Shown piece after piece: positions 35,743 to 58,700 of a DNA stretch of 64,000 nucleotides (the stretch's first letter is position 1; every line of letters begins with the position of its first letter). The translations under genes were made by a program, and so were the position numbers. Source of the stretch: Polaribacter sp. Hel1_33_78 (GTDB taxonomy: Bacteria; Bacteroidota; Bacteroidia; Flavobacteriales; Flavobacteriaceae); contig NZ_LT629794.1 of the NCBI RefSeq assembly GCF_900106075.1, positions 186,001 to 250,000 of the forward strand, in the 5' to 3' direction. The notes under the pieces were generated by a model. That model saw only the letters and a program-made list of their open reading frames with translations, was not told the origin of the DNA and made no database searches.

Positions 35743-35786
35743 ATGATAAATATCATAGTAAAAAGAATTTAATTCAAATAGATTTA
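35743..35786 (+). promoter_or_regulatory. Island promoter A: Crp/Fnr-like dyad plus -7 box
   Basis: Dyad ATGAT-AAAT-ATCAT at 35743-35756, 22 bases, then TAGATTTA at 35779-35786. It serves the lipoprotein/D-lactate dehydrogenase operon; predicted start of RNA is near 35791, 16 bases before the ATG. There is no -33 TTTG, as expected of a class II activated promoter. Confidence 0.8.
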
Positions 35787-35806
35787 CGAGATAAAACCTA
35801 AAAGTT

Positions 35807-36445
35807 ATGAAAAATTTAATATTCATTTTAGCAATAATAATTTTTACAGGTTGCTCATCTATTAAAATAGTAGATAGTTGGAGAAGTAAAGAATACACTG
35901 ACTTTAAACCTAAAAAAGTATTAATTGTTGGAATTACGGAAAACTTAACCGCTAGAAAAATATTTGAAGAACAATTAAAAGAAAAACTAAAACAGAATGG
36001 TGTTGATGCAGCAGAAAGTTATGACCTATTTACATTAAAATTTACTACTGAAAAGCAAACTGAAGAAAATATCAAAGAAGAAGTAGAAAAAATCACTAAA
36101 AATGGTTTTGATGCTATATTAATTTCAGCAGTGAAAGGAGTGGATGAAGAAGTAATGTACAATACTAATTACTATAACAACTACTATTATAGGAGACACC
36201 CTTTTAGACGCTATTATTATTTGCATCAAGATGTATATTTTGATGGAGGATACTATAATAAGTATAAAATTTATCACGTTGAAACTTCATTATATAAACT
36301 AAAAGAGAATAATGATAAATCTTTAATTTGGGTTGCTTCAAACAAAATCATTGAACCTAACGCCATTATTACTACCGTTAATGAATATGTAGCTGTTATT
36401 ATCAAATCATTAAAAAGAGAAGGTATAATTTCTTCTAATAAGTAG
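35807..36445 (+). CDS. Lipoprotein, paralogue of the gene at 59412
   Basis: A 212-residue lipoprotein with lipobox FTGC (Cys near residue 16). After it, SSIKIVDSWRSKEY leads to the strand KKVLIVGITENLTARKIFEE and later FDAILISAVKGVDEE and IYHVETSLYKL. The segment YNNYYYRRHPFRRYYYLH is strikingly Tyr/Arg-rich. The gene at 59412 encodes a clear paralogue with the same blocks; the pair bracket the stress island. No function is known; an envelope role is implied by export. It starts the operon with the dehydrogenase 6 bases downstream. Confidence 0.8.
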   Translation: MKNLIFILAIIIFTGCSSIKIVDSWRSKEYTDFKPKKVLIVGITENLTARKIFEEQLKEKLKQNGVDAAESYDLFTLKFTTEKQTEENIKEEVEKITKNGFDAILISAVKGVDEEVMYNTNYYNNYYYRRHPFRRYYYLHQDVYFDGGYYNKYKIYHVETSLYKLKENNDKSLIWVASNKIIEPNAIITTVNEYVAVIIKSLKREGIISSNK

Positions 36446-36451
36446 TTAAAC

Positions 36452-37462
36452 ATGAAAACACTTGTATACAGCGCTAAAGATTATGAAATTCCTTATTTAG
36501 AAAAAGCGAATTGCAGAAAACATGAATTAACTTTAATAAAAGAAGCTTTATCTTCTGAATCTGCAATGAAAGCGATAGGATATGATGCTATTTCAATTTC
36601 TTCAGCGGATAAAGTTTCCTCAATTATAATAGAAAAACTTAGTGATTTTGGTGTTAAATATATTACCCTGCGTTCTGTAGGACATGATAATGTAAGTTTA
36701 CACAGCGCCCTTGAGTTCAATATTAAAGTTGCAAATACACCAGCATATTCACCATATGCTATAGCGGAGCATGCAGTAAGCTTATTATTAGCCTTAAATA
36801 GAAAACTTATAGAATCTAATCAGAGAGTGAAATCGTTTAACTTTGATTTAAATCATCTTATCGGTTTTGATTTAAACAACAAGACAGTGGGTATAATTGG
36901 AACCGGTAAAATAGGTTCTATTATGACTAAAATAATGCATGGTTTTGGGTGTGAATTATTAGGTTTTGATCTTGTTGAAAACAAAGAGTTAATTCAAAAA
37001 TATAACTTGATCTATCATTCCTTAGAAGATTTATGTAAAAATTCAGATATTATCTCGCTTCATATCCCTTTAAATAGTGATACACATCATTTAATAGACA
37101 AAAAGTTAATTGCACAAATGAAACCAGGTGTTGTCATCATAAACACTGCAAGAGGAGCCATTTTAAAAACTGAAGATATTATTAGTGGCTTAAGAAATGA
37201 AACAATTGGATTTTTAGGAATTGATGTTTATGAAAATGAAAAAGAAATCTTTTTTAGGGATCATTCTCATGATATTGTTAAAGATGAAATGCTCATTAAA
37301 TTAAATTCAATGCCCAATGTTTTAATTACAGGACATCACGCTCTATTAACGGAGGAAGCTTTAACAAATATTGCAGCTACAACAATTTATAATTTAGATT
37401 GCTGGAGTGAAAATAGAGAAACAGAAAACGAATTAACGAACACCCTAATCAATAGGGACTAA
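36452..37462 (+). CDS. ldhA: D-2-hydroxyacid dehydrogenase, probably D-lactate dehydrogenase
   Basis: A 336-residue NAD-dependent dehydrogenase of the D-lactate type, which would reduce pyruvate to D-lactate and regenerate NAD+. Features: TLRSVGHDNVSL and NTPAYSPYAIAEHAVSLLLA in the catalytic domain, the Rossmann turn GIIGTGKIGSI (about 146-156), SLHIPLNSDTHHLID, the substrate Arg in INTARGAIL, the Glu in FLGIDVYENE and the catalytic His in LITGHHALLT. Fermentative lactate formation fits oxygen limitation and the dyad promoter upstream. Exact substrate is inferred. It ends one base from the convergent L,D-transpeptidase gene. Confidence 0.86.
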   Translation: MKTLVYSAKDYEIPYLEKANCRKHELTLIKEALSSESAMKAIGYDAISISSADKVSSIIIEKLSDFGVKYITLRSVGHDNVSLHSALEFNIKVANTPAYSPYAIAEHAVSLLLALNRKLIESNQRVKSFNFDLNHLIGFDLNNKTVGIIGTGKIGSIMTKIMHGFGCELLGFDLVENKELIQKYNLIYHSLEDLCKNSDIISLHIPLNSDTHHLIDKKLIAQMKPGVVIINTARGAILKTEDIISGLRNETIGFLGIDVYENEKEIFFRDHSHDIVKDEMLIKLNSMPNVLITGHHALLTEEALTNIAATTIYNLDCWSENRETENELTNTLINRD

Positions 37463-38386
37463 CTATTTTTTCTTGTTATATCCATATATATCTTTTAAAG
37501 ATATAGTATTTCCGTTTACTGAATCTTTGACTCTTAAATCATACCTAATGGTTATTTTAGTATTAATAGGTGCATAATAATAAATTATCCATGCATGCCC
37601 TTCTTTAGAGCCAATACAGCCATTAGAATAAGCCTTTCCTAAGGTGTTTGGATTCGTGGTAGGGTGTATTAATTGACCATAGCGTAATCCATTAATTTCA
37701 GTTTCTATAAAAGGAATTTGAGGTAATTTTGTAACCTTGTTGTCATCTCTTTTTGTGACATAATATCGATGTCCACTAGCAGGATTATAGAAATCTGGAA
37801 AACGTTCGTATTTTACAATTTTACCTTTTCCTGTTTTTGTTTTTAAGTCTAAAACTCTTCCAGCCATTTTAAGATATTTTTTTTCATCTCTTCCAACCCT
37901 GATTGGAAATTTAAAAAGCTCTTTTGAGTTTTCAAAAATTCGAAGTTTAAACTCAGGGATATTTACATCTATTTTTGTGTTTTTAAAAGAGCTAAGAATT
38001 TTATTCGCTAATTTAGAGTTGGGTACAATTAGTTTATCACCTTTTCTTAAAATTATCATTTTTTTCTGATTATAAACAAAAGAATCTTTTTCTTTCATTA
38101 CATAATAATCAGTATTTTTTAATCTGTTAATTATCCATTGATTTGCTCTTACTAAAAGATGTTCTGTTAATTTGTAGGGTGTCAAAGAATCGTGTTTTGT
38201 AACAATAGAATCTAAAAATTGAAAGTAGTTTTCCACGGTAATATCTTTTTCAATCTTTATTTTTTTTGAAGAGATATTACTAAACAAAATATTTTTTATT
38301 TGAAGAGGGGCAAGTGAATATGTATAGCCAATATTAAAACATGCCATCAGAAAAATAATTACAATAAGGATAATTTTATTTTTCAT
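37463..38386 (-). CDS. L,D-transpeptidase (YkuD family)
   Basis: A 307-residue exported protein with an N-terminal hydrophobic signal (1-25). A possible LysM-like region (about 75-125) includes IILRKGDKLIVPNS. The YkuD domain (about 135-285) has IPEFKLRIFENSKELFKFPI, the His in YGQLIHPTTNPNTLG and the catalytic motif YSNGCIGSKEG with Cys. The enzyme forms 3-3 peptidoglycan crosslinks or attaches proteins. A crosslink type that resists ordinary growth enzymes fits a non-growing state. It is expressed from promoter B, divergent from the gene at 38539. Confidence 0.88.
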   Translation of the reverse strand: MKNKIILIVIIFLMACFNIGYTYSLAPLQIKNILFSNISSKKIKIEKDITVENYFQFLDSIVTKHDSLTPYKLTEHLLVRANQWIINRLKNTDYYVMKEKDSFVYNQKKMIILRKGDKLIVPNSKLANKILSSFKNTKIDVNIPEFKLRIFENSKELFKFPIRVGRDEKKYLKMAGRVLDLKTKTGKGKIVKYERFPDFYNPASGHRYYVTKRDDNKVTKLPQIPFIETEINGLRYGQLIHPTTNPNTLGKAYSNGCIGSKEGHAWIIYYYAPINTKITIRYDLRVKDSVNGNTISLKDIYGYNKKK

Positions 38387-38414
38387 TCTTTTAAGAATTA
38401 GAAACGCTCTAGCG

Positions 38415-38458
38415 CTAAGTTAAGTTTAGAAAAGAAGAAATGAAATGATAATTATCAG
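38415..38458 (-). promoter_or_regulatory. Island promoter B toward the L,D-transpeptidase gene
   Basis: On the minus strand: CTGAT-AATT-ATCAT (38458-38445), 22 bases, then TAACTTAG (38422-38415). RNA should start near 38410, 24 bases before the ATG. Confidence 0.75.
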
Positions 38459-38470
38459 CTTCATTTAAAT

Positions 38471-38514
38471 ATGACTAATATCATTTCGTTTTGATAGATT
38501 TTTAATTTCTTTTA
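38471..38514 (+). promoter_or_regulatory. Island promoter B' toward the gene at 38539
   Basis: ATGAC-TAAT-ATCAT (38471-38484; one mismatch in the far half), 22 bases, then TTCTTTTA (38507-38514). It is back to back with promoter B, the dyad centres 26 bases apart. RNA should start near 38519, 20 bases before the ATG. Confidence 0.6.
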
Positions 38515-38538
38515 CAGAAGAAATTAAGAGGTATTATT

Positions 38539-39042
38539 ATGAAAGTAGAACATTTAGAAGAGCATGTTAATGATTACAGAGAATCTATTAAAACAGTTGT
38601 TGATAAAAAAATTCAATGGAAAAGTAGTGCTAAAAAACGAATAATAAGAGTTTTAAAAAGTATTGCTAAAAGTTATAATATAGGTTGGAAGGTGCAAGAA
38701 CTTAATTGGATTTACAATAATGAAGCAGTTAATATTACATTCAATTCTTTTCCTTCAGATCTTATTGATTGTACCAATAAGGTTCCTACTTATCAATTTA
38801 TTCAAGGAGGAGCTTTAGTTTTTTCTCAATCTTACAGCGGAGACGTATATGTTATTGTCCTTTTCCCATTTGTAGAGCAATTACAAATGGAAAATATTAG
38901 TATAGAGTTGGGGTTTTACAATCCAGCAGAAATTACAGAGAAACTTATTATTGAAAAAGTAGATGAGTTTTTAAAAGAAATGATAAAATGGGAAGTTCCA
39001 TCTTATAAAACTACGTTAGGATTTCATCATAAAGAAATCTAA
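38539..39042 (+). CDS. Conserved-looking protein of unknown function
   Basis: A 167-residue soluble protein I do not recognise. It has a charged helical N-terminus (HLEEHVNDYRESIKTVVDKK), then an alpha/beta part with VQELNWIYNNEAVNITFNS, GGALVFSQSYSGDVYVIVLF and a C-terminal helix ending in basic residues. It has no signal peptide, membrane segment or obvious catalytic motif. Its own class II-like promoter B', divergent from the L,D-transpeptidase, places it in the stress regulon. Confidence 0.75.
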   Translation: MKVEHLEEHVNDYRESIKTVVDKKIQWKSSAKKRIIRVLKSIAKSYNIGWKVQELNWIYNNEAVNITFNSFPSDLIDCTNKVPTYQFIQGGALVFSQSYSGDVYVIVLFPFVEQLQMENISIELGFYNPAEITEKLIIEKVDEFLKEMIKWEVPSYKTTLGFHHKEI

Positions 39043-39067
39043 TTTTTTTTGTCGCTAAGTTTGAAGC

Positions 39068-39538
39068 TTACCGCTCTTTTTTCTCTGAATAAATTCTTTT
39101 TTTCCCTGTTATCTCAACAACACTTATTTTAAAAATAATTGAAGGATTATTTGTGTATATTTTACTAGAAAAATGACCAATTGAACTTAAACTTCTTTCT
39201 TCTTTTCTTAAGATAAGCTCTTTAATTCCCAATGCAAACTCATGTAAATATTTTTTTGCATCAGAACCAGAGATTTCTTGATAAATTCCATGAGCCAAAA
39301 CTGAGCTCCAGTTATTAATGTTTTTTATTTCTGAAATTTGAAGAGATACTCTACTGTTTTTTCTCATCGCCATTGTTTTATGCCCTTCGTCAGAATAACC
39401 GACAATAATATTTTTCTTATCAAAATAATAGGTAATTGGAACAATAAAAGGTCTGTCTTTATAAATATAAGCGAGTTGACCAATATAATTCTCTGCAAGT
39501 ATATTCATACACTCTTTTTCGTTCAAACTAGTTATCAT
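39068..39538 (-). CDS. Pyridoxamine 5'-phosphate oxidase-like flavin-binding protein
   Basis: A 156-residue split-barrel protein. It starts MITSLNEKECMNILAENYIG, then LAYIYKDRPFIVPITYYFD, with the strand NIIVGYSDEGHKTMAMRKNSRVS matching the FMN-binding blocks of the Pnp_ox_like_2 family. WSSVLAHGIYQEI is also typical. Such proteins reduce small substrates or protect against nitro or nitroso compounds; similar genes sit in low-oxygen regulons of other bacteria. The substrate is unknown. Promoter C drives it. Confidence 0.82.
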   Translation of the reverse strand: MITSLNEKECMNILAENYIGQLAYIYKDRPFIVPITYYFDKKNIIVGYSDEGHKTMAMRKNSRVSLQISEIKNINNWSSVLAHGIYQEISGSDAKKYLHEFALGIKELILRKEERSLSSIGHFSSKIYTNNPSIIFKISVVEITGKKRIYSEKKER

Positions 39539-39565
39539 AATGCGGGTTTTAAATATAACATGTAG

Positions 39566-39609
39566 CTAAATTAATTGAAATGGAATGGAAAAAAAATGAT
39601 ATGTATCAG
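39566..39609 (-). promoter_or_regulatory. Island promoter C toward the flavoprotein gene
   Basis: On the minus strand: CTGAT-ACAT-ATCAT (39609-39596), 22 bases, then TAATTTAG (39573-39566). RNA should start near 39561, 23 bases before the ATG at 39538. Confidence 0.75.
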
Positions 39610-39619
39610 TTGAGAAAAT

Positions 39620-40837: not shown

Positions 40838-40843
40838 AAGAAG

Positions 40844-41599: not shown

Positions 41600-41905
41600 T
41601 TATAGATTTTTAAAATGTCCGTAAAAAAGGAGTTTATTTTGCAAATCAGTTATTTCTTTTTTCAAAGAATTTACTTGGTTTAATAAATTATAAATTACAT
41701 CAACACCTTCTAAATTTATATTCAAATCATAATGTAATCGAATCATTTTTTCTACCTCGTTTATATGAGTTATTTTAATGTAATCTTGATTTTCTGCAAC
41801 AATGACCTCTATTAATTGGTACTCTTTTAATTCGTTCATAAAATGAATAGGAATGCAATAATGTTCACAAAATCGCTCTATAGATATTAAGTTTTGAGCT
41901 TCCAT
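41600..41905 (-). CDS. cbpM: Chaperone modulator CbpM-like (MerR-like helix-turn-helix)
   Basis: A 101-residue protein with a MerR-like N-terminal fold (LISIERFCEHYCIPIHFMNE) and a C-terminal coiled coil ([20 protein letters not shown]). CbpM proteins bind the J-domain of CbpA and restrain it. The gene starts 2 bases after the upstream cbpA-like stop, which supports the call, although sequence similarity to CbpM is modest. Confidence 0.8.
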   Translation of the reverse strand: MEAQNLISIERFCEHYCIPIHFMNELKEYQLIEVIVAENQDYIKITHINEVEKMIRLHYDLNINLEGVDVIYNLLNQVNSLKKEITDLQNKLLFYGHFKNL

Positions 41906-41907: not shown

Positions 41908-42792
41908 TTAGCGTTGTTTTTGTAATTCTTTAATTAGTTCTTTTTCTTTTTCGTTTAACTTGGTAGGAATTTTAAGTTCATAGGTTATATATAAATTACC
42001 AAATTGTCCTTCTTTTTTGTAAATTGGAAATCCTTTTCCTTTGAGTTTTACTTTAGTATTGTTTTGTGTTTCTGGTTTAATAGTAAGTTTTACTTTTCCA
42101 TCAAAAGTATCAACCATTAACTCGCCACCTAATAAGGCAGTGTATAAATCCAAAGCTACAGTTAAGTATAAGTTGTTATGATTTCTTTTAAACTTTGTAT
42201 TGTTTATTATTGAAAACTGAAGATATAAATCTCCATTTGGTCCGTTATTAACCCCTTTACCTCCATGCCCTTTTATTTTAATAATTTGCCCATTTTCTAC
42301 GCCGGCAGGAATCGTAATTCTTATATTTTTTCCATTTACAGTTATTACCTGTTTTTGAGTTTTATAAACATCTTTTAAATTTAATTTTAACTCAGAATTA
42401 TAATCTTGACCTCTAAATTTGGAACTGGTGCTTCTGCCAGAAGAGGCTCCACCAAACATGTTTTCAAAAATATCAGAAAAATCTTCTTGAGAATACCCAC
42501 CAGAAGTACCTTGTGAACTTCTTTCATATTGTCGCTGTCGCTGTTTTTTTTGCTCATAAGCTTCTGCATTTTGCCAATGCTCTCCATATGCATCGTATTT
42601 CTTACGATTTTCTAAATTGCTTAAAACTTCATTTGCTTCGTTAATTTCTTTGAATTTTTTTTCTGCAACTTTATCATTTGGGTTTAAATCTGGATGATAT
42701 TTTCGCGCCAATTTTCTATACGCCTTTTTAATGTCAGCTTCAGAAGCATTTTTGGGAATTCCTAAAATTTTATAATAATCTACAGACGCCAT
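41908..42792 (-). CDS. cbpA: DnaJ-family co-chaperone, CbpA type
   Basis: A 294-residue co-chaperone for DnaK. The J-domain (1-70) has the HPD motif in [12 protein letters not shown] Gly/Phe-type linker (about 80-125) precedes the two C-terminal substrate-binding domains ([37 protein letters not shown]). The zinc-finger domain of DnaJ is missing, as in CbpA. It is paired with cbpM and driven by promoter D; CbpA in other bacteria serves stationary phase and starvation. Confidence 0.92.
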
Positions 42793-42827: not shown

Positions 42828-42871
42828 TAAAAGTATTGGAATTAGATTTTAGATAAAATGAGAATTATCAG
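42828..42871 (-). promoter_or_regulatory. Island promoter D toward cbpA-cbpM
   Basis: On the minus strand: CTGAT-AATT-CTCAT (42871-42858; one mismatch in the near half), 22 bases, then TACTTTTA (42835-42828). RNA should start near 42823, 31 bases before the ATG. Confidence 0.72.
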
Positions 42872-42886: not shown

Positions 42887-43561
42887 TTATGTAATAATTT
42901 TACCGTCTTCCATAGTAATTATTCTATCTGTTCTTTTTGCAAAATCTTCATTATGCGTAACAACTAGAAGTGATAAATTTTGTTCATTACTCAGTTGTTT
43001 AAAAATATTAAAAACATTATCTGAATTATGGCTATCTAAATTCCCTGTAGGTTCATCTCCCATAATTATAGAAGGGTTATTTATTAAAGCTCTAGCAATG
43101 GCAACTCTTTGTTTTTCGCCCCCAGATATTTGTGAAGCTTTTTTATTAAGTAAATGCTCTATGTTCAGCATTTTCAATTTTAGTATTGCATCATGTTCTA
43201 TTTCTTGAAAAGATTTTTCTCCTAATTTTTTAGCAGGAAGCATTATGTTTTCTAGTACAGAAAATTCTGATAGTAAGTAATGAAACTGAAAAACAAAACC
43301 AATATGTTTATTTCTTAAATATGACAAACTATCTTTACTATCTCCAGAAATTAATTTGTTATCTAAATACAATTCGCCGTCATAATCGGTATCCATAGTT
43401 GATAAAATATACAATAAAGTCGATTTCCCACAACCCGACTTCCCCATAATAGAAGCAAATTCGCCCTTTTTAATTTTAAAACTAATATTCTTAAGCACAT
43501 GAAAAAGCAGAGGCTTTTTAAAATATTTATTAATATGTTTTGCTTCTAATACACTATTCAT
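42887..43561 (-). CDS. ABC transporter ATP-binding protein (MacB/LolD type)
   Basis: A 224-residue ATPase with Walker A GKSGCGKSTLL (about 40-50), Q-loop FVFQFHYLL, signature QISGGEKQRVAIARAL, Walker B SIIMGDEPTGNLD and the H-loop VVTHNEDF. These match the LolD/MacB exporter class, which moves lipoproteins, peptides or drugs from the inner membrane outward. It follows the permease with 1 base between, and the operon begins at promoter E with the WG-repeat gene. Confidence 0.93.
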   Translation of the reverse strand: MNSVLEAKHINKYFKKPLLFHVLKNISFKIKKGEFASIMGKSGCGKSTLLYILSTMDTDYDGELYLDNKLISGDSKDSLSYLRNKHIGFVFQFHYLLSEFSVLENIMLPAKKLGEKSFQEIEHDAILKLKMLNIEHLLNKKASQISGGEKQRVAIARALINNPSIIMGDEPTGNLDSHNSDNVFNIFKQLSNEQNLSLLVVTHNEDFAKRTDRIITMEDGKIIT

Positions 43562-43562
43562 T

Positions 43563-46604: not shown

Positions 46605-46648
46605 TAAAATTACTTAAGAAAAACAGGTAATAAAATGATATTCATCAT
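46605..46648 (-). promoter_or_regulatory. Island promoter E toward the WG-repeat/ABC exporter operon
   Basis: On the minus strand: ATGAT-GAAT-ATCAT (46648-46635), 22 bases, then TAATTTTA (46612-46605). RNA should start near 46600, 23 bases before the ATG. Confidence 0.8.
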
Positions 46649-47531: not shown

Positions 47532-47575
47532 TAAAATTAAAGTACTGTATGTTCTTAAATTATGATAAAAATCAG
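47532..47575 (-). promoter_or_regulatory. Island promoter F toward the TerB-like/DUF302 operon
   Basis: On the minus strand: CTGAT-TTTT-ATCAT (47575-47562), 22 bases, then TAATTTTA (47539-47532). RNA should start near 47527, 19 bases before the ATG. The dyad also lies upstream of the histidine kinase, but the plus-strand spacing does not fit. Confidence 0.8.
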
Positions 47576-47656: not shown

Positions 47657-49162
47657 ATGCTAAACAAAGAGCAGGATATTTTTAACGTACTTTTTGAAGC
47701 TGTTTCAGAAGGTGTTATAGTTGTTGACGATCAGCAAAAAATAGTTTCTATTAATTCTTCTATCGAAAAAATGTTTGGGTATGAAAAAGATGAGCTTGTT
47801 CATGAAAAACTGAACATTTTAATACCTAAAAATTATCACGCAGGTCATGGTGATCATTTTAAGAGCTTTTTGAACAAGAAAGAGAAAAGGCAAATGGGTA
47901 AAGGGCGCCATTTGTATGGCGCTAGAAAGAATGGGGATATTTTTCCTTTAGAAGCAGGTTTAAATCCATTTAAAATTTATGGAAAAACTTTTATAATGGC
48001 CTTAATTATAGATGTTTCTGAGAGAAAAAAGGCAGAAGAAGAATTGATTCATTGGGCAAATATTTTTAATGAATCTTTAAATGAGATCTATATTTTTAGT
48101 TCTGACACATACAAATTTATTAATGTCAATCTTGGTGCACAAAAAAATATTGGTTACGATTTAACCGAATTAAAAAGTTTGACTCCTTTGGATATCAAGC
48201 CAGATTATACAGAAGCTCAATTTAGAAAAAAGGTACAACCTTTGCTAGAGAAAAAAGAAGATAAACTTATTTTTGAAACTGTACATCTGCGTAAAAATGG
48301 CACAAAATATCCTGTAGAAATACATCTGCAGTTGTCTTCTTTTAAAGGAAAAGAAGTTTTTGTTGCTATAATTTTAGATATTACAGAAAGAAAAAATTAT
48401 ACGAAAAAATTAGAGAACACCGTTGATCAACGAACTATAGAGCTTAAAAAAGCACTTGCTAAAGAGCAAGAATTGAATGAATTAAAAACAAAATTTTTAT
48501 CATTAGTTTCTCATGAGTTTAAAACGCCTTTAAGTGGTATTTTAACATCTACAATATTATTAGGCAAATATAAATTAACAGAACAGCAAGAAAAAAGGGA
48601 AAAACATTTAGAAACGATTACCAATAAAGTTCATTATTTAAATAATATTTTAAATGACTTTCTATCCGTTGAAAAACTAGAAACGGGTAAAATAAAATAT
48701 AAATATGATAATTTTAAATTAAGCAAAGTTGTAGATGAAGTTATTTACAATGCTAACATGCTTCTAAAAGTGGGTCAAAAAATTAAGTATCCAGAAAATA
48801 TTGATGAAATTTCATTAACACAAGATGAAAAAACTATTGAATTATCACTTTCTAATTTAGTAAACAATGCTATCAAATATTCTCCAGAAAATTCGGTAAT
48901 CGAAATTGGTATTAAACAAGATGCATTTCACACTACCTTCAATATAAAAGATAACGGAATGGGGATTCCTGAAGCAGATCAAAAAAACATATTTAATCGT
49001 TATTTTAGAGCAGAAAATGCTTTGTTAACGCAAGGAACTGGAATCGGATTAAACATTATAAAAAGCCATTTAGAAAATATAGGTGGAACCATAACTTTTG
49101 AAAGTAAAGAGAATATTGGGTCCACTTTTGTTATGAAAATTATTAATGAAGTATTACTATGA
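47657..49162 (+). CDS. PAS-domain sensor histidine kinase, FixL-like
   Basis: A 501-residue soluble kinase with no membrane segment. PAS1 (about 8-125) contains ILIPKNYHAGHGDHFKSF with His64, and GKGR with Arg84: the same 20-residue spacing as the heme His and Arg of FixL. PAS2 covers about 130-250. A coiled coil leads to the dimerisation helix LSLVSHEFKTPLSG with phospho-acceptor His285, then N box LVNNAIKYSPEN, DNGMGIPEADQ and GTGIGLNIIKSH. It overlaps the response regulator gene by 4 bases (ATGA). Heme binding is a hypothesis; many non-heme PAS domains share part of this motif. Confidence 0.92.
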   Translation: MLNKEQDIFNVLFEAVSEGVIVVDDQQKIVSINSSIEKMFGYEKDELVHEKLNILIPKNYHAGHGDHFKSFLNKKEKRQMGKGRHLYGARKNGDIFPLEAGLNPFKIYGKTFIMALIIDVSERKKAEEELIHWANIFNESLNEIYIFSSDTYKFINVNLGAQKNIGYDLTELKSLTPLDIKPDYTEAQFRKKVQPLLEKKEDKLIFETVHLRKNGTKYPVEIHLQLSSFKGKEVFVAIILDITERKNYTKKLENTVDQRTIELKKALAKEQELNELKTKFLSLVSHEFKTPLSGILTSTILLGKYKLTEQQEKREKHLETITNKVHYLNNILNDFLSVEKLETGKIKYKYDNFKLSKVVDEVIYNANMLLKVGQKIKYPENIDEISLTQDEKTIELSLSNLVNNAIKYSPENSVIEIGIKQDAFHTTFNIKDNGMGIPEADQKNIFNRYFRAENALLTQGTGIGLNIIKSHLENIGGTITFESKENIGSTFVMKIINEVLL

Positions 49163-50208
49163 AAAAAATATTATTAATAGAAGATGATGTAGTTTTAAGA
49201 GAAAATACTGCAGAACTTTTAGAGTTATCAAACTATGAAGTTATAACCGCAGCTAATGGAAAAATAGGAGTAGAAATTGCGGATATTAATTTACCAGATC
49301 TTATTGTTTGTGATATTATGATGCCAGAATTAGATGGTTATGGAGTGCTTGAAGCACTATCAAAAAATAATAAAACAAAACATACATCTTTTATTTTTTT
49401 ATCTGCAAAAACAGAAAGAAAGGATGTTAGAAAAGGAATGAATTTAGGAGCTGATGACTATATAACGAAGCCTTTTTCTGAGGATGAACTTATTAGTGCT
49501 ATCGAAAGCAGATTAGCAAAAGCATCTATTTTAAAAGATATTAGAGAGTATAAAGAAGAAATAAAAGAAGAAAGAGACGAACTAAGAAGCCTTAATGATT
49601 TAAAGAATTATTTTGATGATAATGGTGAAACTTTTCATTTTTCTAAAGATAAAGCCATCTATCAAGAAGGAAACAACTCTAATTATATTTATTTAATAAT
49701 TAGCGGACTCGTAAAGTGTCATAAACTAGATGAACAAGGAAAACAACTTACAACTGCTTTATATCAGGAAGATAATTTGTTTGGGTATACTTCTTTTACC
49801 CAAAATTTAGCCTACCAAGAATCTGCTACTGCGATTAAAGAAACAGTATTAGTAGGTTTGTCTAAAAATGTATTAACGAGTGTTTTAAACAAAAACCATA
49901 AAGTAACTCTAGAATTAATAGAGTTATTGACGGAGGATTTAGCAGGAGTAAAAAATCAACTGTTACAAATGGCTTATAGTTCTGTAGGTAAAAAAACAGC
50001 GAAAACAATTTTAAAATTTGCAGAAAAATTAAATCATAAACCTGAGGATCAAATTAAAATTTCTAGAAACGATCTAGCCAGTGTGGCAGGCATTGCAACA
50101 GAAACATTAATAAGAACAATGTCTAACTTTAAAAAACAAGGTCTCATAGAAATTGATGGAAGAACTATTAGAATTTTAGATTTAGAAAAGCTACAAGAAA
50201 TCTGCTAG
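49159..50208 (+). CDS. Response regulator fused to a Crp/Fnr-type transcription factor
   Basis: A 349-residue protein. The receiver domain (1-120) has phospho-acceptor Asp52 (VCDIMMPELDG), acidic Asp9/Asp10, a Ser in FLSAKT and Lys104 in YITKPF. A coiled linker (about 120-145) leads to a cyclic-nucleotide-type sensor fold (about 150-265, AIYQEGNNSNYIYLIISGLV). A Crp helix-turn-helix follows (about 270-345): NDLASVAGIATETLIRTMSN with Glu315 and Arg319 at the DNA-contact positions of Crp/Fnr. No Fnr-type Cys cluster is present. It is the best candidate to bind the island dyads, under control of the kinase encoded just upstream. Confidence 0.93.
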   Translation: MKKILLIEDDVVLRENTAELLELSNYEVITAANGKIGVEIADINLPDLIVCDIMMPELDGYGVLEALSKNNKTKHTSFIFLSAKTERKDVRKGMNLGADDYITKPFSEDELISAIESRLAKASILKDIREYKEEIKEERDELRSLNDLKNYFDDNGETFHFSKDKAIYQEGNNSNYIYLIISGLVKCHKLDEQGKQLTTALYQEDNLFGYTSFTQNLAYQESATAIKETVLVGLSKNVLTSVLNKNHKVTLELIELLTEDLAGVKNQLLQMAYSSVGKKTAKTILKFAEKLNHKPEDQIKISRNDLASVAGIATETLIRTMSNFKKQGLIEIDGRTIRILDLEKLQEIC

Positions 50209-50233: not shown

Positions 50234-50277
50234 ATGATTAATATCATATTTTAGAATACAATGAAACTATAAATTTG
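50234..50277 (+). promoter_or_regulatory. Island promoter G toward the first Usp operon
   Basis: ATGAT-TAAT-ATCAT (50234-50247), 22 bases, then TAAATTTG (50270-50277). RNA should start near 50282, 18 bases before the ATG at 50300. Confidence 0.82.
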
Positions 50278-50299
50278 TCTACATACAAAGATGAATTTA

Positions 50300-51578: not shown

Positions 51579-51881
51579 ATGACAATAAATATTCAATTTG
51601 TAAATATGTCAACAAGTGAAACTATGGAGGCATATACCGTAAAAAAATTAAAACCTTTATCTAAAAAGTATGATTCGATAATAAAAGCCACTGTGTTTTT
51701 TAAAAAAGAGAACAGTCATAAAGAAAAAGAAATAATTTGTGAAATAGAACTAAGTGCTGCTGGGCCAAGATTGTTTGCTTCTTCTAATGAAAAAAATTAT
51801 GAACTTGCAGTAAAAAACACAATAACAGATTTAGAAACGCAGCTTAAAAAGAGAAAAGGAATTGTAAAACCATATATGTAG
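51579..51881 (+). CDS. hpf: Ribosome hibernation promoting factor, short form
   Basis: A 100-residue HPF/RaiA-type protein: INIQFVNMSTSETMEAYTVK, then KLKPLSKKYDSIIKATVFF, then the strand EIICEIELSAAGPRLFASSN and the helix YELAVKNTITDLETQLKKRK. It binds the decoding centre of the 30S subunit and stalls idle ribosomes. The C-terminal dimerisation domain of long HPF is absent. It lies last in the operon of promoter G, so ribosome shutdown is tied to the island's signal. Confidence 0.92.
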   Translation: MTINIQFVNMSTSETMEAYTVKKLKPLSKKYDSIIKATVFFKKENSHKEKEIICEIELSAAGPRLFASSNEKNYELAVKNTITDLETQLKKRKGIVKPYM

Positions 51882-51905: not shown

Positions 51906-51949
51906 CTGATGTATGTCATTGTTTTTTATCGTGCTCAAAGGTAACTTTG
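51906..51949 (+). promoter_or_regulatory. Island promoter H toward Usp copies 2 and 3
   Basis: CTGAT-GTAT-GTCAT (51906-51919; one mismatch in the near half), 22 bases, then TAACTTTG (51942-51949). RNA should start near 51954, 20 bases before the ATG at 51974. This position shows that the in-frame TTG at 51947 is not the start codon. Confidence 0.8.
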
Positions 51950-51973
51950 AGTAAATCTTTAAAAACATTCATA

Positions 51974-52822
51974 ATGAAAAAAATACTAATTCCGATTGAT
52001 TTTTCTGAAAACGCAATAAATGCGGTTAATTATGCTTTGGCATTGTTTAAAGATGAATTTTGCAAGTTTTATATTTTACATGCATATCAAGAAGATATTT
52101 ATTTAAGTACTGTTCCAATTACTAGAGAAGTGATTAAAGAGGTTATTAGAGCAGTTGGAAAGGATTCACAATTACAATTAAAAAATACACTAAAGCAAAT
52201 TAAAAAGCTTTCACATAACTCTAAGCATGTATTTAAAATTATATCGGCCAATAACATTCTTGTAGATGAGGCAGATAGAGTTGTCGAAGAAAAAAATATA
52301 GATCTTATTGTTATGGGAACTCGTGGCAAAACAAATAATAAAAAATTAACTTTTGGAAGCCATACACTTCAAGTTTTAAAATATGTTAAATGTCCAGTTT
52401 TGGTTATTCCAGAAAGTTATACTTATAAAGAACCAGATCATATTCTTTTTGCTACAGACTATAGTATACCCTATCAACAAAGAGAGTTAGAACTTTTAGG
52501 TGAAATAGCATCTGATAATAATTCAATAGTAGATTTATTATACATTTCAGAAGGTAATCATTTATCTCTTAGACAAGAAAGGAACCAGTCTTTTATTAAA
52601 GAAAACCTCAGAAATACAAAGGTTCATTTTAAAATAACAAAAGATAAAAATATTTCGAATGAAATTTATAGATACATAAAAGATTACGAAACTGATCTTT
52701 TAGTTATGATAAATAGAAGACATTCTTTTTTAGAAAATATTCTATTTCAAGATAATGTAGATAAAATAGGTTTATCTATAAATATTCCTTTTTTGGCCCT
52801 ACAAAATATGAGACGTAATTAA
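51974..52822 (+). CDS. Universal stress protein, two Usp domains (copy 2)
   Basis: Starts at the ATG at 51974 (KKILIPIDFSENAINAVNYA); an in-frame TTG at 51947 lies inside the -7 box. The 282-residue protein has the ATP motif in MGTRGKTNNKKLTFGSHT. The second domain begins near DHILFATDYSIPYQQRELEL and has no ATP motif. It is the first gene of an operon with copy 3, which starts 22 bases after its stop. Confidence 0.92.
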   Translation: MKKILIPIDFSENAINAVNYALALFKDEFCKFYILHAYQEDIYLSTVPITREVIKEVIRAVGKDSQLQLKNTLKQIKKLSHNSKHVFKIISANNILVDEADRVVEEKNIDLIVMGTRGKTNNKKLTFGSHTLQVLKYVKCPVLVIPESYTYKEPDHILFATDYSIPYQQRELELLGEIASDNNSIVDLLYISEGNHLSLRQERNQSFIKENLRNTKVHFKITKDKNISNEIYRYIKDYETDLLVMINRRHSFLENILFQDNVDKIGLSINIPFLALQNMRRN

Positions 52823-52844: not shown

Positions 52845-53687
52845 ATGAAAAATATTCTTTTACCGACAGATTTTTCAGACAATTCATGGAATGCCATTCA
52901 ATATGCAGTTGAATTATTTAAAGATGAAAAATGTAATTTCTTTCTATTGAACACATATACTCCTATGATTTATAATGTAGAGTTCATGGAAGTAAATACT
53001 GCAAAGTTTGGTTTAATTGATGCCATGAGAGAAACATCAAAAAATAACCTAAATAAAGTTCAGCAGAAAATTGAAAATAAGTTTAACAATCCAAACCATA
53101 GTTTTAGTAAAATTTCTTCATTTAACACTTTAACTAATGAGATACAAGAGCTGCATGAGGGTAATGTAATGGATCTTATTGTTATGGGAACTAAAGGAGC
53201 ATCTGGTTTAAAAGAAGTCTTATTTGGATCTAATACAGTGCATGTAATTAAAAATGCAAAATGCCCAGTTTTAGCGGTACCTAGTGAGTTTGTTTTTGAA
53301 TCTCCTCGCGAAATATTATTTCCATCAGATTATGAAGTTTCTTTTAATGAAAAACTACTAAAGCAAATTTTAGATATTACGAATTTCTATAATTCAAGAG
53401 TTCATATTTTAAATGCTTCATATGGTTATGATTTATCTGAAAAGCAAGAAAAAAATAAAGAAAAATTAGAGGGATTATTTAAAAAAGTTGCCCATTTATT
53501 TCATAGTGTGAGTAATCAAAATGTAACAGAAGCAATTTCTAATTTTCAATTAAAAGTCCGGATTAACCTATTAGTTTTGATTAATAACAAACATTCTTTT
53601 TTTGAAAATCTTTTCTTTAAATCAACAATTAATCAAATAGGTTTTCACTTAAATATTCCTCTCCTAGTAATACCCTCTAAATTATAG
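52845..53687 (+). CDS. Universal stress protein, two Usp domains (copy 3)
   Basis: A 280-residue Usp protein beginning KNILLPTDFSDNSWNAIQYA. The first domain has MGTKGASGLKEVLFGSNT, matching G-x2-G-x9-G-S. The second starts near EILFPSDYEVSFNEKLLKQI and is degenerate at the nucleotide site. The sequence is closest in appearance to copy 1, so recent duplication is likely. It has no promoter of its own and shares promoter H with copy 2. Confidence 0.92.
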   Translation: MKNILLPTDFSDNSWNAIQYAVELFKDEKCNFFLLNTYTPMIYNVEFMEVNTAKFGLIDAMRETSKNNLNKVQQKIENKFNNPNHSFSKISSFNTLTNEIQELHEGNVMDLIVMGTKGASGLKEVLFGSNTVHVIKNAKCPVLAVPSEFVFESPREILFPSDYEVSFNEKLLKQILDITNFYNSRVHILNASYGYDLSEKQEKNKEKLEGLFKKVAHLFHSVSNQNVTEAISNFQLKVRINLLVLINNKHSFFENLFFKSTINQIGFHLNIPLLVIPSKL

Positions 53688-53705: not shown

Positions 53706-53749
53706 CTGATTAATATCCTGGTTTAAATGAGTATTCAAACTTAATTTTA
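53706..53749 (+). promoter_or_regulatory. Island promoter I toward Usp copy 4
   Basis: CTGAT-TAAT-ATCCT (53706-53719; one mismatch in the near half), 22 bases, then TAATTTTA (53742-53749). RNA should start near 53754, 21 bases before the ATG. Confidence 0.78.
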
Positions 53750-53774: not shown

Positions 53775-54605
53775 ATGCAAAAGAAAATATTGTTGTCTAC
53801 AGATTTTTCTGATAATGCATGGAATTCTATTATTTATGGATTAAAACTCTTTAGTAGTGAAACATGTAAATTTTATATACTTCATGCTATTCAGATAAAA
53901 AGTCCAACCATGTCAAGTTTTTCTAATAGGTTTTCAAAAACAGTGCGTGAAACTGCTATGAATGATTTATTGGATTTAAAACAAATGATAGAAAGAGTTA
54001 ATGCAAATGCAAACCATAGTTTTGAAATAATTTTAAGCACTCAAAAATTAAAAACAGCTATCGAGTCAGCGGTTAAAAAGCATCAAATAGAAATGGTTGT
54101 CATGGGGACCAAGGGAGCAATTGGAGCAAAACAAGTCTTTTTTGGTAGCAATACTGTTAGTGTTATTAGCAAAATGAGACTTTGTCCAATTTTAACAGTT
54201 CCAGATAATTTTGAGTTTGTAGCTCCAAAACAAATAGTTTTCCCTACAGATTTTAATCGTTTTTTTGACGAGAAAGAACTGAAACCATTAATAGATATTG
54301 CAAATTTATACAATTCAAAAATAAGTATTCTTCATATTAACAATGAAGAATATTTAAATGAAGTTGAAAAGTACAATTCTAAAATACTCAAAAGTTATTT
54401 AAAAGAATATGAGCATACCCTTTATTTGATTCTGAATTACACAAAAAAAACAGAAGAAGTTAATAATTTTATAATGGACCTAAAAATAAATCTGCTTGTT
54501 TTGGTAAATTATAAACACAGTCTTATAGAAAAGATCATAAAAGAACCGATTATAAAAAAAATCGGTTTTCATCCGATCGTTCCTTTTCTGGTCATTCCAG
54601 AATAA
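53775..54605 (+). CDS. Universal stress protein, two Usp domains (copy 4)
   Basis: A 276-residue Usp protein starting QKKILLSTDFSDNAWNSIIY. The nucleotide motif is MGTKGAIGAKQVFFGSNT in the first domain. The second domain begins near QIVFPTDFNRFFDEKELKPL and lacks the motif. It is monocistronic, with its own dyad promoter I. Confidence 0.92.
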   Translation: MQKKILLSTDFSDNAWNSIIYGLKLFSSETCKFYILHAIQIKSPTMSSFSNRFSKTVRETAMNDLLDLKQMIERVNANANHSFEIILSTQKLKTAIESAVKKHQIEMVVMGTKGAIGAKQVFFGSNTVSVISKMRLCPILTVPDNFEFVAPKQIVFPTDFNRFFDEKELKPLIDIANLYNSKISILHINNEEYLNEVEKYNSKILKSYLKEYEHTLYLILNYTKKTEEVNNFIMDLKINLLVLVNYKHSLIEKIIKEPIIKKIGFHPIVPFLVIPE

Positions 54606-54649
54606 CTGATATATATCATTGTTAAGCTAATAATACTTCTTTAGCTTTA
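54606..54649 (+). promoter_or_regulatory. Island promoter J toward Usp copy 5 operon
   Basis: CTGAT-ATAT-ATCAT (54606-54619), a perfect dyad, 22 bases, then TAGCTTTA (54642-54649). RNA should start near 54654, 22 bases before the ATG at 54676. It probably drives five genes to 58642. Confidence 0.85.
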
Positions 54650-54675
54650 GATTAATAAATTTAAAAAATATTTTG

Positions 54676-55530
54676 ATGAGATATAAAATATTATTACCAA
54701 CAGATTTCTCAAAAAATTCTTTACATGCTATAAAATATGCTTTAGAACTCTATAAAAATGATAATTGTGATTTTTATATTTTAAATGTTTTTTATGCCAC
54801 TGGAAATATAGCAGAAAGTCTAACGCATTTAGAACCAGGAAGTGAGTTACATGAAATGGCAAAAATAGAATCCGAAAATGGTTTAAAAAACATTGTTGAT
54901 AGGCTGAAGACTCAAGGATATAAAAATAAAAAGCATCAGTTTAAAACAGTTTCGACTTTTAACAACCCATTAGAAGCAATTAAAAATATTGTTGAAAAAA
55001 AAGATATCGAAATGATCGTAATGGGTACTAAAGGAATAACTAACTCTAAACTCCTAGCCTATGGTAATACAGCAATTTATGTGATGGAAAAGGTAAGAAA
55101 TTGTCCAGTAATTGTAGTTCCTGAAAAAGCAAAACAGCATTTACCAAAGGAAATCGTATTTCCAACAAGTTATAAAACACATTATAAGCGGCGCGAATTA
55201 AATTATCTAATAGATATTGCTAAAAAATGTGAAGCTAAAATTGCTGTTTTACATATTTTAGAAGAGGAGAATTTAGATGAAAATCAAAAAGAAAAACAGC
55301 AAATGCTTAAAGAGATTTTTGAAGGTGTAAACTATTCTTTTCACGAATTAGGCAATAATTCGATAGAATCTGCAATAAATATTTTTATTGAGAGTAGAGA
55401 TAGTGATATGGTAGCATTTATAAATAAAAAGCATACTTTCTTCGGCAGTATTTTAAGACAACCTTTAGTAAAAGAGATGGGATTTAATTCTAAAGTTCCA
55501 ATACTAGTGATGCACGATTTAAGAAACTAA
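54676..55530 (+). CDS. Universal stress protein, two Usp domains (copy 5)
   Basis: Starts at the ATG at 54676 (RYKILLPTDFSKNSLHAIKY); a TTG directly before it is less likely. The 284-residue protein has a first-domain motif MGTKGITNSKLLAYGNTA with Asn replacing the usual Ser after the last Gly, so ATP binding may be weaker. The second domain begins near EIVFPTSYKTHYKRRELNYL. It opens an operon with the following four genes. Confidence 0.9.
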   Translation: MRYKILLPTDFSKNSLHAIKYALELYKNDNCDFYILNVFYATGNIAESLTHLEPGSELHEMAKIESENGLKNIVDRLKTQGYKNKKHQFKTVSTFNNPLEAIKNIVEKKDIEMIVMGTKGITNSKLLAYGNTAIYVMEKVRNCPVIVVPEKAKQHLPKEIVFPTSYKTHYKRRELNYLIDIAKKCEAKIAVLHILEEENLDENQKEKQQMLKEIFEGVNYSFHELGNNSIESAINIFIESRDSDMVAFINKKHTFFGSILRQPLVKEMGFNSKVPILVMHDLRN

Positions 55531-55541
55531 AAACAGACAAG

Positions 55542-55946
55542 ATGATAAATACAGGAATTTGGCTAGATAAAAACAAGGCACTTATTGTTTCACTAACAGA
55601 AGAAACAGAAGTCTTTAAAACAATTATATCAAACGTAGAAAATTTTCATATTCATGGAGGATCCGGAACACGTTTTAAAGGAGGTCCGCAAGATGTTGTG
55701 CAAGACAGCAAATATTTAGAAAGAGAAAAACATCAATTTAAAGTTTATTTTAAAGAGATAGCATCAGAAATAGAAGGTTCAGATGGAATTCTAATTTTTG
55801 GCCCAGCAGAAGTAAAAGATAAATTTAAAAAAGAATTAGAAAGCTCATATGAAGAAATTAATGTAAAAGTTAAAGATGTTCAAACGGCTGATAGTATGAC
55901 AGATAATCAGGTAAAAGCTTGGGCAAGAGACTACTTTAAAACTTAG
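55542..55946 (+). CDS. Small protein with GPAEVK motif, possibly eRF1/pelota-fold
   Basis: A 134-residue soluble protein starting NTGIWLDKNKALIVSLTEET, with a Gly-rich block (HIHGGSGTRFKGGPQDVVQD), a helix YLEREKHQFKVYFKEIASEI and the strand-turn GILIFGPAEVKDKFKKELE. The last block resembles the GPGEAK turn of bacterial relatives of eRF1/pelota domain 2 or 3. That could mean ribosome or tRNA-related action, but no activity can be claimed. Overlap with HPF in the same regulon makes a translation role interesting. It is the second gene of the promoter J operon. Confidence 0.65.
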   Translation: MINTGIWLDKNKALIVSLTEETEVFKTIISNVENFHIHGGSGTRFKGGPQDVVQDSKYLEREKHQFKVYFKEIASEIEGSDGILIFGPAEVKDKFKKELESSYEEINVKVKDVQTADSMTDNQVKAWARDYFKT

Positions 55947-55975
55947 TTTTTTAATTCATTTTTTTTGTTTTCAAT

Positions 55976-56827: not shown

Positions 56828-56830
56828 ACA

Positions 56831-58204
56831 ATGGAACATTTTGCGAAAGTCAAATTTTTGGGAGCTTCTGGGGTTGTAACAGGCTCTAAATTTCTTATTG
56901 AAACTTCAGAGAAAAACATACTTATAGATTGTGGGATGTTTCAAGGATTAAAAGAACTAAGGGAACTTAATTGGAAAGATTTGTCTGTTAATGTTAGAGA
57001 TATAGATGTTGTACTTTTAACACATGGCCATTTAGATCATGTTGGTTATTTACCAAGATTAGTAAAACAAGGATATACAGGGAAAATTATAGGCACAGCG
57101 CCAACATTGGCAATTGCACAAATCATATTGAATGATAGTGCTAAAATTCATGAAGAAGAAGCAGAAAAAGCAAATAGAGAGCATTATTCTTCGCATAAAA
57201 TTGCTTTACCTTTTTACACACTTAAAGAAGCAGAGAAGACCATTAATCAATTTGAAGTAGAAATAGAAAATAAGTGGATTGTTTTATCTGAAAACATTTC
57301 ATATCGTTTTCAATATAATGGACATATTATTGGTGCAACTTTTATAGAAATAGATATTAAAGGAAAGCGTTTTGTATTTTCTGGAGATATTGGTAGAAGT
57401 AATGATTTTCTTTTAGAAAATCCAAAAACACCAGAATGGGCAGATTTTTTATTTATTGAAAGTACTTATGGAAATAGATTGCATCCAAAAGAAGATGTTG
57501 AAGATAGACTTGCAACAATAATTATAGATACTATTTTTAATAAAGGAAATCTTATTATTCCAAGTTTTGCTGTTGAACGTTTGCAAACACTTATGTATAT
57601 TTTATGGAAATTGTACAAGAAAAACAAGATTCCAAATATTCCAATTTTTGTTGATAGTCCCATGGGAAATAGAGTTTTAGATGTTTTTAACCGTTTCCCA
57701 AAATGGCATAAATTACCTCAAGAAGAATATAATGAAATGTGTAATCACATAAATATTATTCAATCATATAAAGAAACATGGGAAACAATCGATGATAAAA
57801 GATCTAAAATTATAATTGCTGGAAGCGGAATGGTAACAGGAGGTAGAGTACTTACGTATCTGCAGCAACTTATAGGCGAGCCCTCAACAACAGTTTTGTT
57901 AGTTGGTTTTCAGGCAGAAGGCACTCGTGGAAGACAACTTTTGGAAGGCGCACATGAAATTCGTTTTTATGGTAAATATTATCCTGTAAAAGCCGCCGTA
58001 AAAAACTTAGGAAGTTTGTCTGCTCATGCAGATCAGCAAGAACTATTAAACTGGATGAAAGACATTAAAAATATTCCAGAAAAAGTTTTTTTAATTCATG
58101 GAGAGCCAACAGCTATAGACGCTTTTCGAGTAAAAATAAAAGACACCTATAATTGGGATGCAACGATTCCAAAATTAGAAAGTGTTGAAGAACTTGTAAT
58201 CTAA
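56831..58204 (+). CDS. Metallo-beta-lactamase/beta-CASP RNase-like protein
   Basis: A 457-residue cytoplasmic metallohydrolase. Zinc motifs: HGHLDHVGYLPRL (about 63-75), His in YNGHIIGATF, Asp in FSGDIGRS. Beta-CASP elements follow: ESTYGNR, SFAVERLQ, FVDSPMGNRV, IAGSGMVTGG, and the terminal SAHADQQELL and FLIHGEPTA. No KH domain. These enzymes process or degrade RNA, like TTHA0252 and CPSF-type proteins. It follows the ATP-cone nuclease in the promoter J operon. Confidence 0.93.
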   Translation: MEHFAKVKFLGASGVVTGSKFLIETSEKNILIDCGMFQGLKELRELNWKDLSVNVRDIDVVLLTHGHLDHVGYLPRLVKQGYTGKIIGTAPTLAIAQIILNDSAKIHEEEAEKANREHYSSHKIALPFYTLKEAEKTINQFEVEIENKWIVLSENISYRFQYNGHIIGATFIEIDIKGKRFVFSGDIGRSNDFLLENPKTPEWADFLFIESTYGNRLHPKEDVEDRLATIIIDTIFNKGNLIIPSFAVERLQTLMYILWKLYKKNKIPNIPIFVDSPMGNRVLDVFNRFPKWHKLPQEEYNEMCNHINIIQSYKETWETIDDKRSKIIIAGSGMVTGGRVLTYLQQLIGEPSTTVLLVGFQAEGTRGRQLLEGAHEIRFYGKYYPVKAAVKNLGSLSAHADQQELLNWMKDIKNIPEKVFLIHGEPTAIDAFRVKIKDTYNWDATIPKLESVEELVI

Positions 58205-58219
58205 GTAATATATAATAAA

Positions 58220-58642
58220 ATGGAAACAAAAAATATTTTTAAAAGCTTTAATGAAAACAAATCGATTGAAGAATTAAAGTATAATATGCTTCAATTTAAA
58301 ACAAGATTAGAAGAATTAATTATTGAATGTAAATTTTTTAAGAAGCTTATAGAAGCATCAATTTATAAGTCAAATTCAATTAATTTATTTGAAAACTTAG
58401 AGAAGTTTAAAAAAGATATGAATTGTTTAGAAAAAGAAACTTTAGAGTTATTAAAAGATATTAATTCGCATTCAAACTCAATTACAAATAAAATTGAATG
58501 TGAAGACTTGGTTTGTGATAATTTTTTCATTGGAAGTCACGATAGATTGGAGGAAAAAATTCACAAGTTATTTATTAAATCTATGAATTTAAAATTCAAA
58601 TGGTTTCAATATTTAGAAAGTGTATTCAGAGTTAAATTTTAA
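58220..58642 (+). CDS. Helical protein of unknown function
   Basis: A 140-residue, mostly helical protein with no signal or membrane segment. Charged amphipathic stretches such as SIEELKYNMLQFKTRLEELI and EKFKKDMNCLEKETLELLKD suggest coiled coils. I do not recognise it. It starts 16 bases after the beta-CASP gene and is the last gene of the promoter J operon. It is broadly similar in length and character to the protein at 58951. Confidence 0.7.
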   Translation: METKNIFKSFNENKSIEELKYNMLQFKTRLEELIIECKFFKKLIEASIYKSNSINLFENLEKFKKDMNCLEKETLELLKDINSHSNSITNKIECEDLVCDNFFIGSHDRLEEKIHKLFIKSMNLKFKWFQYLESVFRVKF

Positions 58643-58656
58643 ATTATTCTTTCAAA

Positions 58657-58700
58657 CTGATAAAGATCATTTTGTTAAACGGTATTCCTTTATAACTTAG
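58657..58700 (+). promoter_or_regulatory. Island promoter K toward the last operon
   Basis: CTGAT-AAAG-ATCAT (58657-58670), 22 bases, then TAACTTAG (58693-58700), the same box as in promoter B. RNA should start near 58705, only 7 bases before the ATG at 58712. Confidence 0.75.

Follow-up and report, generated by a model that had tools for sequence, protein, structure and literature searches.

A promoter class of fixed spacing in Flavobacteriaceae, probably switched at low oxygen by a receiver–Crp fusion and Fnr-type proteins

The stretch analysed here, called the window, comprises 64,000 bases (186,001–250,000) of the genome of Polaribacter sp. Hel1_33_78, a single contig of 3,227,823 bases. 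It carries a gene for a histidine kinase of 501 amino acids (aa) with two PAS domains, placed just upstream of a gene for a fusion of receiver, cNMP-fold and Crp helix-turn-helix (349 aa; REC-Crp1), and around this pair an island of genes, several of them for universal stress proteins. An earlier note, made from the letters alone, had described twelve promoters of this island, on both strands, with one 44-base layout of a dyad TGAT-N4-ATCA, an invariant gap of 22 bases and a box TAnnTTTA, and had connected them with the Crp-fused regulator. When the sequence was re-read, positions and strands were correct for all twelve; the core of the dyad is exact in eight and has a single mismatch in four, and the gap is 22 bases in 12/12. 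The box kept its general form but proved looser than described, being TAnnTTTR in eight promoters, TAnnTTAG in three and TTCTTTTA in one. The outer base of the far half-site is C (eight) or A (four), and T closes the near half-site in all twelve, as had been noted; 11 to 35 bases separate the box from the first ATG. The idea of a regulon confined to this island did not hold, as promoters of this class occur throughout the genome and across the family, also in genomes without the fusion, where they stand before classical low-oxygen genes.

One alternative, that words such as TGAT and ATCA and T-rich boxes merely coincide in AT-rich DNA, draws on the window itself. Of the 41 gaps tried there, gap 22 has five occurrences of the exact dyad with the exact box, and three others have one each. 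With one mismatch allowed per side, gap 22 has 17 matches, while the remaining 40 gaps average about 4.6, the highest being gap 36 with 12; in 20 windows drawn from a second-order Markov model the relaxed count at gap 22 averaged 2.35 and never exceeded 5. The dyad word alone was observed 67 times versus 47 expected, a number reached in none of 100 shuffles. The relaxed motif is noisy within the window alone, and the relatives' loci decide the matter. A scan with the fusion protein found at least 530 relatives, of which the best 80 were kept; they belong to genera of Flavobacteriaceae or to bins of Flavobacteriales or Bacteroidia, and the closest are Polaribacter with 82–85% identity. Exact dyad and exact box were found 160 times at gap 22, with no more than 7 occurrences at each of the other gaps within 5–45, and with a relaxed dyad 317 times at gap 22 and at most 6 times at other gaps from 12 to 32, with a site in 80/80 loci. 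Of twenty loci of a second fusion type, 19 had gap-22 sites, 80 in total, and no other gap had more than 2. Four of the five nearest Polaribacter loci had seemed empty at first; their site behind the fusion gene is ATGACCAATATCAT and was recovered with the relaxed dyad. In 199 genomes of the family (own genome included, mostly one per genus) the strict motif had 825 matches compared with 8 for the reversed control. With one preferred gap in the relatives, a chance origin is ruled out by the gap histograms and has next to no probability left.

The sites are also placed like promoters. Only 15 of the 397 gap-22 sites in the 100 loci lie within an open reading frame (ORF) of at least 120 aa, and 350 have the ATG of an ORF of at least 60 aa within 150 nucleotides (nt), at a median of 24 nt. 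Directly 3' of the fusion gene, before the first universal stress protein gene, a site was present in 71 of 78 relatives' loci. The asymmetry noted in the window is common to the relatives, since the outer base of their 160 sites is C in 93, A in 62, T in four and G in one (C or A in 155) and the inner base is T in 155. Such an asymmetry is beyond what a symmetric dimer explains; the inner T would fall at -35, adjoining the expected position of sigma region 4.

The features of the island are collected in Table 1. Universal stress proteins were named from Pfam scans, except the third, which was named by likeness to its neighbours, and the lipoprotein label was given by eye and from an NCBIfam match under its cut-off. 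Promoters 2 and 3 form two dyads back to back in a divergent gene pair (38445–38484). The permease gene of an ABC transporter (43563–44824) is split into two frames, and all 16 relatives compared have a single frame of 420 aa.

Table 1. Promoters and genes of the island, in window positions
Feature	Position	Strand	Remarks
Promoter 1	35743..35786	+	ATGAT-N4-ATCAT, N22, box TAGATTTA; before the next two genes
Lipoprotein-like gene	35807-36445		
2-hydroxyacid dehydrogenase gene	36452-37462		
L,D-transpeptidase (YkuD) gene	37463-38386		behind promoter 2
Promoter 2	38415..38458	-	
Promoter 3	38471..38514	+	weakest box, TTCTTTTA
Gene without assigned product	38539-39042		behind promoter 3
Pyridoxamine-phosphate-oxidase-like gene	39068-39538		behind promoter 4
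Promoter 4	39566..39609	-	
MerR_2 gene	41600-41905		behind promoter 5
DnaJ gene	41908-42792		behind promoter 5
Promoter 5	42828..42871	-	
HlyD, FtsX and ABC genes	42887-45939		perhaps also served by promoter 6 (presumed operon extent)
WG-repeat gene	45975-46577		behind promoter 6
Promoter 6	46605..46648	-	
DUF302 gene	46700-47095		behind promoter 7
Gene without assigned product	47095-47508		behind promoter 7
Promoter 7	47532..47575	-	
Histidine kinase gene	47657..49162	+	two PAS domains
REC-Crp1 gene	49159..50208	+	proposed activator
Promoter 8	50234..50277	+	directly 3' of the regulator gene, upstream of universal stress protein 1
Universal stress protein 1 gene	50291-51142	+	
RaiA/HPF-like gene	51579-51881	+	among the universal stress protein genes
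Promoter 9	51906..51949	+	upstream of universal stress proteins 2 and 3
Universal stress protein 2 gene	51947-52822	+	
Universal stress protein 3 gene	52845-53687	+	
Promoter 10	53706..53749	+	upstream of universal stress protein 4
Universal stress protein 4 gene	53775-54605	+	
Promoter 11	54606..54649	+	upstream of universal stress protein 5
Universal stress protein 5 gene	54673-55530	+	
Gene after universal stress protein 5	55542-55946		followed by ATP-cone/Mrr-like and beta-CASP metallo-hydrolase genes (presumed operon extent)
Promoter 12	58657..58700	+	upstream of the next two frames
Small ORF	58700-58903		
Frame behind the small ORF	58951-60050		

According to the earlier note no such promoter existed outside the island. 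This is true of the window but not of the genome, where the strict pattern has 16 matches (reversed control 0), five in the window and 11 outside it, and where a second island lies at 502–526 kb. The scan of genome and relatives which that note had proposed, run with a model of the twelve sites and with the strict pattern, led to matches well beyond the island. The sequence-only model placed all twelve within the best 15 places, by construction, and added others outside the window; it scored 150 of 9969 first-look candidates and is no census. An ATG of an ORF of at least 50 aa follows the box by 13–39 bases at 14 of the 16 strict matches, and a search with a variable gap (8–38 after ATCA) gave 43 matches versus 8 reversed. 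The genes behind strict sites outside the window include those for a rhodanese/metallo-lactamase, a type III sulfide:quinone reductase with DsrC, and a BON protein; behind weaker sites, with at least one departure, are genes for a VIT transporter, an ArsP_1 permease, a P-type ATPase beside fnr, which we take to be CcoI-like, and another universal stress protein. At 2,384,600 of the genome a gap-22 promoter precedes the sulfide:quinone reductase gene, the DsrC-like gene and a third gene that appears DsrE-like by eye, and the rhodanese/metallo-lactamase gene at 370,482 likewise stands behind a gap-22 promoter; the regulon may include sulfide handling. In two divergent gene pairs, near 871,149–871,222 and 2,706,296–2,706,369, one dyad has a box on either side.

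The second island (502,536–526,013) contains about 11 dyads in this layout when no more than one mismatch is allowed in dyad and box, and a looser dyad raises the count to 15, up to 530,004. Amid these dyads a second kinase and receiver–Crp pair is encoded at 521,796–525,588. The base following TGAT or TGAC is C in nine of the 11 second-island dyads versus none of the 12 in the first island, and the same C was seen in 36/80 sites near the second fusion type in relatives' loci versus 38/317 near the first (p 4e-10); CTGACCTAGGTCAT was found there repeatedly near the second type. A difference in the recognition helix was considered as the cause of the two operator types and not adopted. Both fusion types keep ExxIR (one ExxVR; 79 and 16 helices from 80 and 20 loci), mainly the residue before I varying, L or F in one type versus A in the other, and the second fusion of this genome differs additionally one place before E. 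The second island also holds, at 519,452–521,333, about 3.9 copies of a 480-bp unit with 96% identity, each consisting of a gap-22 promoter, about 400 nt without a frame above about 35 aa on the promoter strand, and a final strong hairpin with a T-run. The predicted fold of the RNA of this repeat is much more stable than those of 100 shuffles (z -7.35), and an Rfam search with it returned three matches, none near the gathering score. One genome of the same genus has a 74% relative over 239 bases, behind a CTGACCCAGATCAT-N22-TACATTTG promoter. A further genome that carries the second fusion type has (near 14,757 of its locus, strand -) a CTGACCTAGGTCAT promoter before an ORF-free stretch that enters a hairpin-like repeat, perhaps another non-coding RNA.

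We were further interested which regulator goes with the motif. A full-length receiver–Crp fusion of either type was found in 105 of the 199 family genomes, one genome with receiver-only matches being left out, and an Fnr resembling that beside the P-type ATPase in 137. With the own genome excluded, the mean motif count was 7.14 with both regulators (n=65), 4.54 with the fusion only (n=39), 2.24 with this Fnr only (n=71) and 0.39 with neither (n=23), so that the link with the fused regulator proposed in the earlier note is supported as an association. Within the genus the means were 6.1 with the fusion (n=13) versus 1.4 without it (n=44), the latter rising to 1.8 (n=31) when genomes below 90% completeness (13 of the 58 genus genomes) were dropped. 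A complete genome of the same genus (2.6 Mb) has this Fnr and zero strict motifs, and no fusion was found in it. In five fusion-free genomes, all with Fnr, 23 strict sites were located in 20 stretches and ten downstream proteins were scanned; CcoNO (cbb3 oxidase subunit I/II), HemN and Pta exceeded their NCBIfam cut-offs, and the others were cytochrome c, Rrf2, two CBS proteins, a universal stress protein, a RaiA-like protein and a LysR-type helix-turn-helix below its cut-off. In a sample of the phylum the motif was present in 19/20 members of the family (own genome included), 2/2 of another family of the order, 13/28 others of the class and 10/148 beyond the class, there with one match each. 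An outer C was somewhat more frequent with the fusion (308/641 sites) than without it (61/168; Fisher p 0.007). The assignment of outer C to the fusion and outer A to Fnr was dropped as a rule, the trend being too weak.

The counts in Fnr-only genomes, where the box stands before ccoNO and hemN, could also mean that Fnr-type iron-sulphur proteins alone read all boxes and that the fusion is a neighbour with another target. This genome does have an intact Fnr-like gene (289,765–290,517) with four well-placed Cys (21, 24, 29 and 123); the gene before it has, by eye, a rubredoxin-like end. Such a reading is nevertheless improbable, as an average of 4.54 sites remains in fusion-bearing genomes that lack this Fnr, in which other Fnr-like paralogues are possible, and as sites lie near the fusion gene in all 80 relatives' loci. 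In addition, the fnr beside the P-type ATPase (1,660,440–1,661,114) is interrupted, leaving an open frame of 120 aa versus at least 225 in all other rows listed (stops flagged in some relatives were taken as upstream of the true start, the query frame beginning early), and yet the count of 16 ranks fifth of the 199 genomes. The interruption is either a true loss or an assembly error.

Turning to the kinase, PAS1 matched FixL best among solved structures (1d06, E 3.7e-13) and then DosP, ahead of all others. H64 aligns with the second His of FixL YRHEHDGY and R84 with a haem-pocket position of FixL, the places of the proximal His and the pocket Arg. In 76 rows (75 of the 80 relatives' loci and the window) H64 is kept in 74, compared with a median of 53.5 for PAS1 columns, and R84 in 62. 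Less likely than an oxygen signal, though more probable than control by Fnr alone, is a reading in which the fusion acts on the boxes, the signal is not oxygen but redox, nitric oxide, starvation or light, and PAS1 is haem-free. Over the first 633 aa of the second kinase, which is paired with the paralogous fusion, the top match is not a FixL haem domain, although its island uses the same promoter layout; in addition, general survival genes make up many of the targets. The points on the other side are the match of PAS1 to FixL and DosP with its conserved His, and the low-oxygen genes behind the shared boxes. Haem sensing by the second kinase was considered and rejected, since within these 633 aa other PAS domains score ahead of FixL (2.9e-6 over residues 125–305).

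The Crp part of REC-Crp1 matches Crp/Fnr structures, and FixK is its best match among the Crp-family NCBIfam models shown (67.5 bits vs 62.9 for CRP). Its only Cys are at 51, 187 and 349 and its N-terminus is the receiver domain, where Fnr has its cysteine cluster. In the alignment with 3h3u, a Crp/Fnr-family structure, YQESA stands against RTSSA, and the Arg-Ser pair by which CRP binds the phosphate is missing; to judge from these residues, the cAMP pocket looks lost.

We consider it probable that the motif represents a switchable low-oxygen promoter class of Flavobacteriaceae, of class II type, whose boxes are shared by REC-Crp1 and Fnr-type proteins and which is operated by a FixL-FixJ-FixK-like cascade in two proteins. 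'Class II' denotes an activator site centred at -41.5. A Crp/Fnr-family dimer would bind (C/A)TGAT-N4-ATCAT at this position, in place of the -33 element, and would help sigma-A polymerase sitting on the TAnnTTTR -7 box. The placement, which agrees with the earlier note, is the one predicted from another flavobacterium, F. psychrophilum, whose sigma-A box spans -12 to -5 (PMC9723704). At the island the main activator is most likely REC-Crp1, which would be phosphorylated by the PAS kinase; with a FixL-like and probably haem-bearing PAS1 the latter would be active as oxygen falls. Fnr-type proteins would read these boxes too, so that an Fnr-type regulon would have in the fusion a second key, controlled by phosphorylation, and the fusion appears to have gathered survival genes around itself, namely those for universal stress proteins, a ribosome hibernation factor, a chaperone and an L,D-transpeptidase.

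Several points weigh against this interpretation, the chief one being that the intact Fnr-like protein could read these boxes. The kinase scores 92.2 bits against NCBIfam FixL, under the cut-off of 850, the Crp part reaches 67.5 of the 300 bits required for FixK, and a His at this PAS position can also occur without haem. Beyond the sampling of mostly one genome per genus the motif counts take no account of phylogeny, the p values of the regulator and genus comparisons ignore shared ancestry, and the fusion census scored at most ten candidates per genome, so that some fusions may be missed. Two strict matches, at 839309 and 2307853, have no gene start within 200 bases. Finally, 70 sites at other gaps (8–36) in the relatives' loci are nearly as promoter-like, three lying in ORFs and 49 near an ATG, which probably reflects, in part, the dyads that they have in common with gap-22 sites; placement is therefore weaker evidence than spacing.

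A wider reading, which we hold tentatively and at somewhat less than even chance, joins both islands. It sees a collapsed FixL-FixJ-FixK cascade acting on the Fnr box, in which a haem-PAS kinase would phosphorylate an Fnr-box-binding receiver–Crp fusion and oxygen control would need no intermediate transcription step. Duplication would have led to the second system with a shifted operator, CTGACC-TA-GGTCAT in its best form, and promoters of this type in the second island would also transcribe four structured non-coding RNAs arranged in tandem. As one fnr, that beside the P-type ATPase, is broken, the fusion may be replacing Fnr here, similar to what has been proposed for Caulobacterales, where an acquired FixK would have taken over the sites of Fnr (FnrN), Fnr being lost afterwards (PMC4999443). 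The individual parts are known; among the open-licence papers listed, judged by title and abstract, none had their combination, this motif, the regulator, the family-wide exact spacing rule or the two operator types as its subject. Flavobacteria are abundant marine polymer degraders, and their low-oxygen regulation seems little described. As a single regular expression captures the promoter class, a target list is ready and start sites are predicted to the base, while genomes with both regulators, either one or none offer a natural four-state comparison. The fused regulator would offer a simple example of a three-step cascade being shortened and taking over the sites of an older regulator.

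Among known systems, Fnr class II promoters resemble the present ones in the TGAT-N4-ATCA core, the presumed centre at -41.5, an activator of the Crp/Fnr family and, in the relatives, the low-oxygen genes. The E. coli-type Fnr consensus is TTGAT-N4-ATCAA, so the outer bases are C or A and T here where Fnr has T and A; the contrast drawn in the earlier note is correct to this extent but was overstated, as Fnr-only genomes carry the same box. Unlike Fnr class II promoters, the dyad is joined to the Bacteroidota TAnnTTTR -7 box, and the regulator proposed for the island, a receiver fusion, lacks the cysteine cluster of Fnr. Anr and DosR hypoxia regulons likewise place several universal stress protein and survival genes under a low-oxygen regulator, with different regulators and promoters. 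The box itself resembles that of Bacteroidota sigma-A promoters, which is of TAnnTTTG type at -12 to -5 (PMC9723704); the present promoters differ by an activator dyad at a single fixed distance upstream, over the -33 region. With FixL-FixJ-FixK of Alphaproteobacteria (PMC4999443, PMC6710368) the system shares a FixL-like PAS kinase, a Crp/Fnr activator without an iron-sulphur cluster and boxes apparently shared with Fnr. PAS1 is of haem-PAS type by its sequence, with His and Arg aligned to its top PDB match FixL, whereas kinase and fusion fall under both family cut-offs and in place of a separate FixJ and a stand-alone FixK made under its control there are receiver and Crp output in one protein. 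Because the defining tests of each failed, the system was filed under neither FixL/FixK nor Fnr; kinase, receiver, Crp output and box are best regarded as the parts of FixL-FixJ-FixK, with one transcriptional step fewer.

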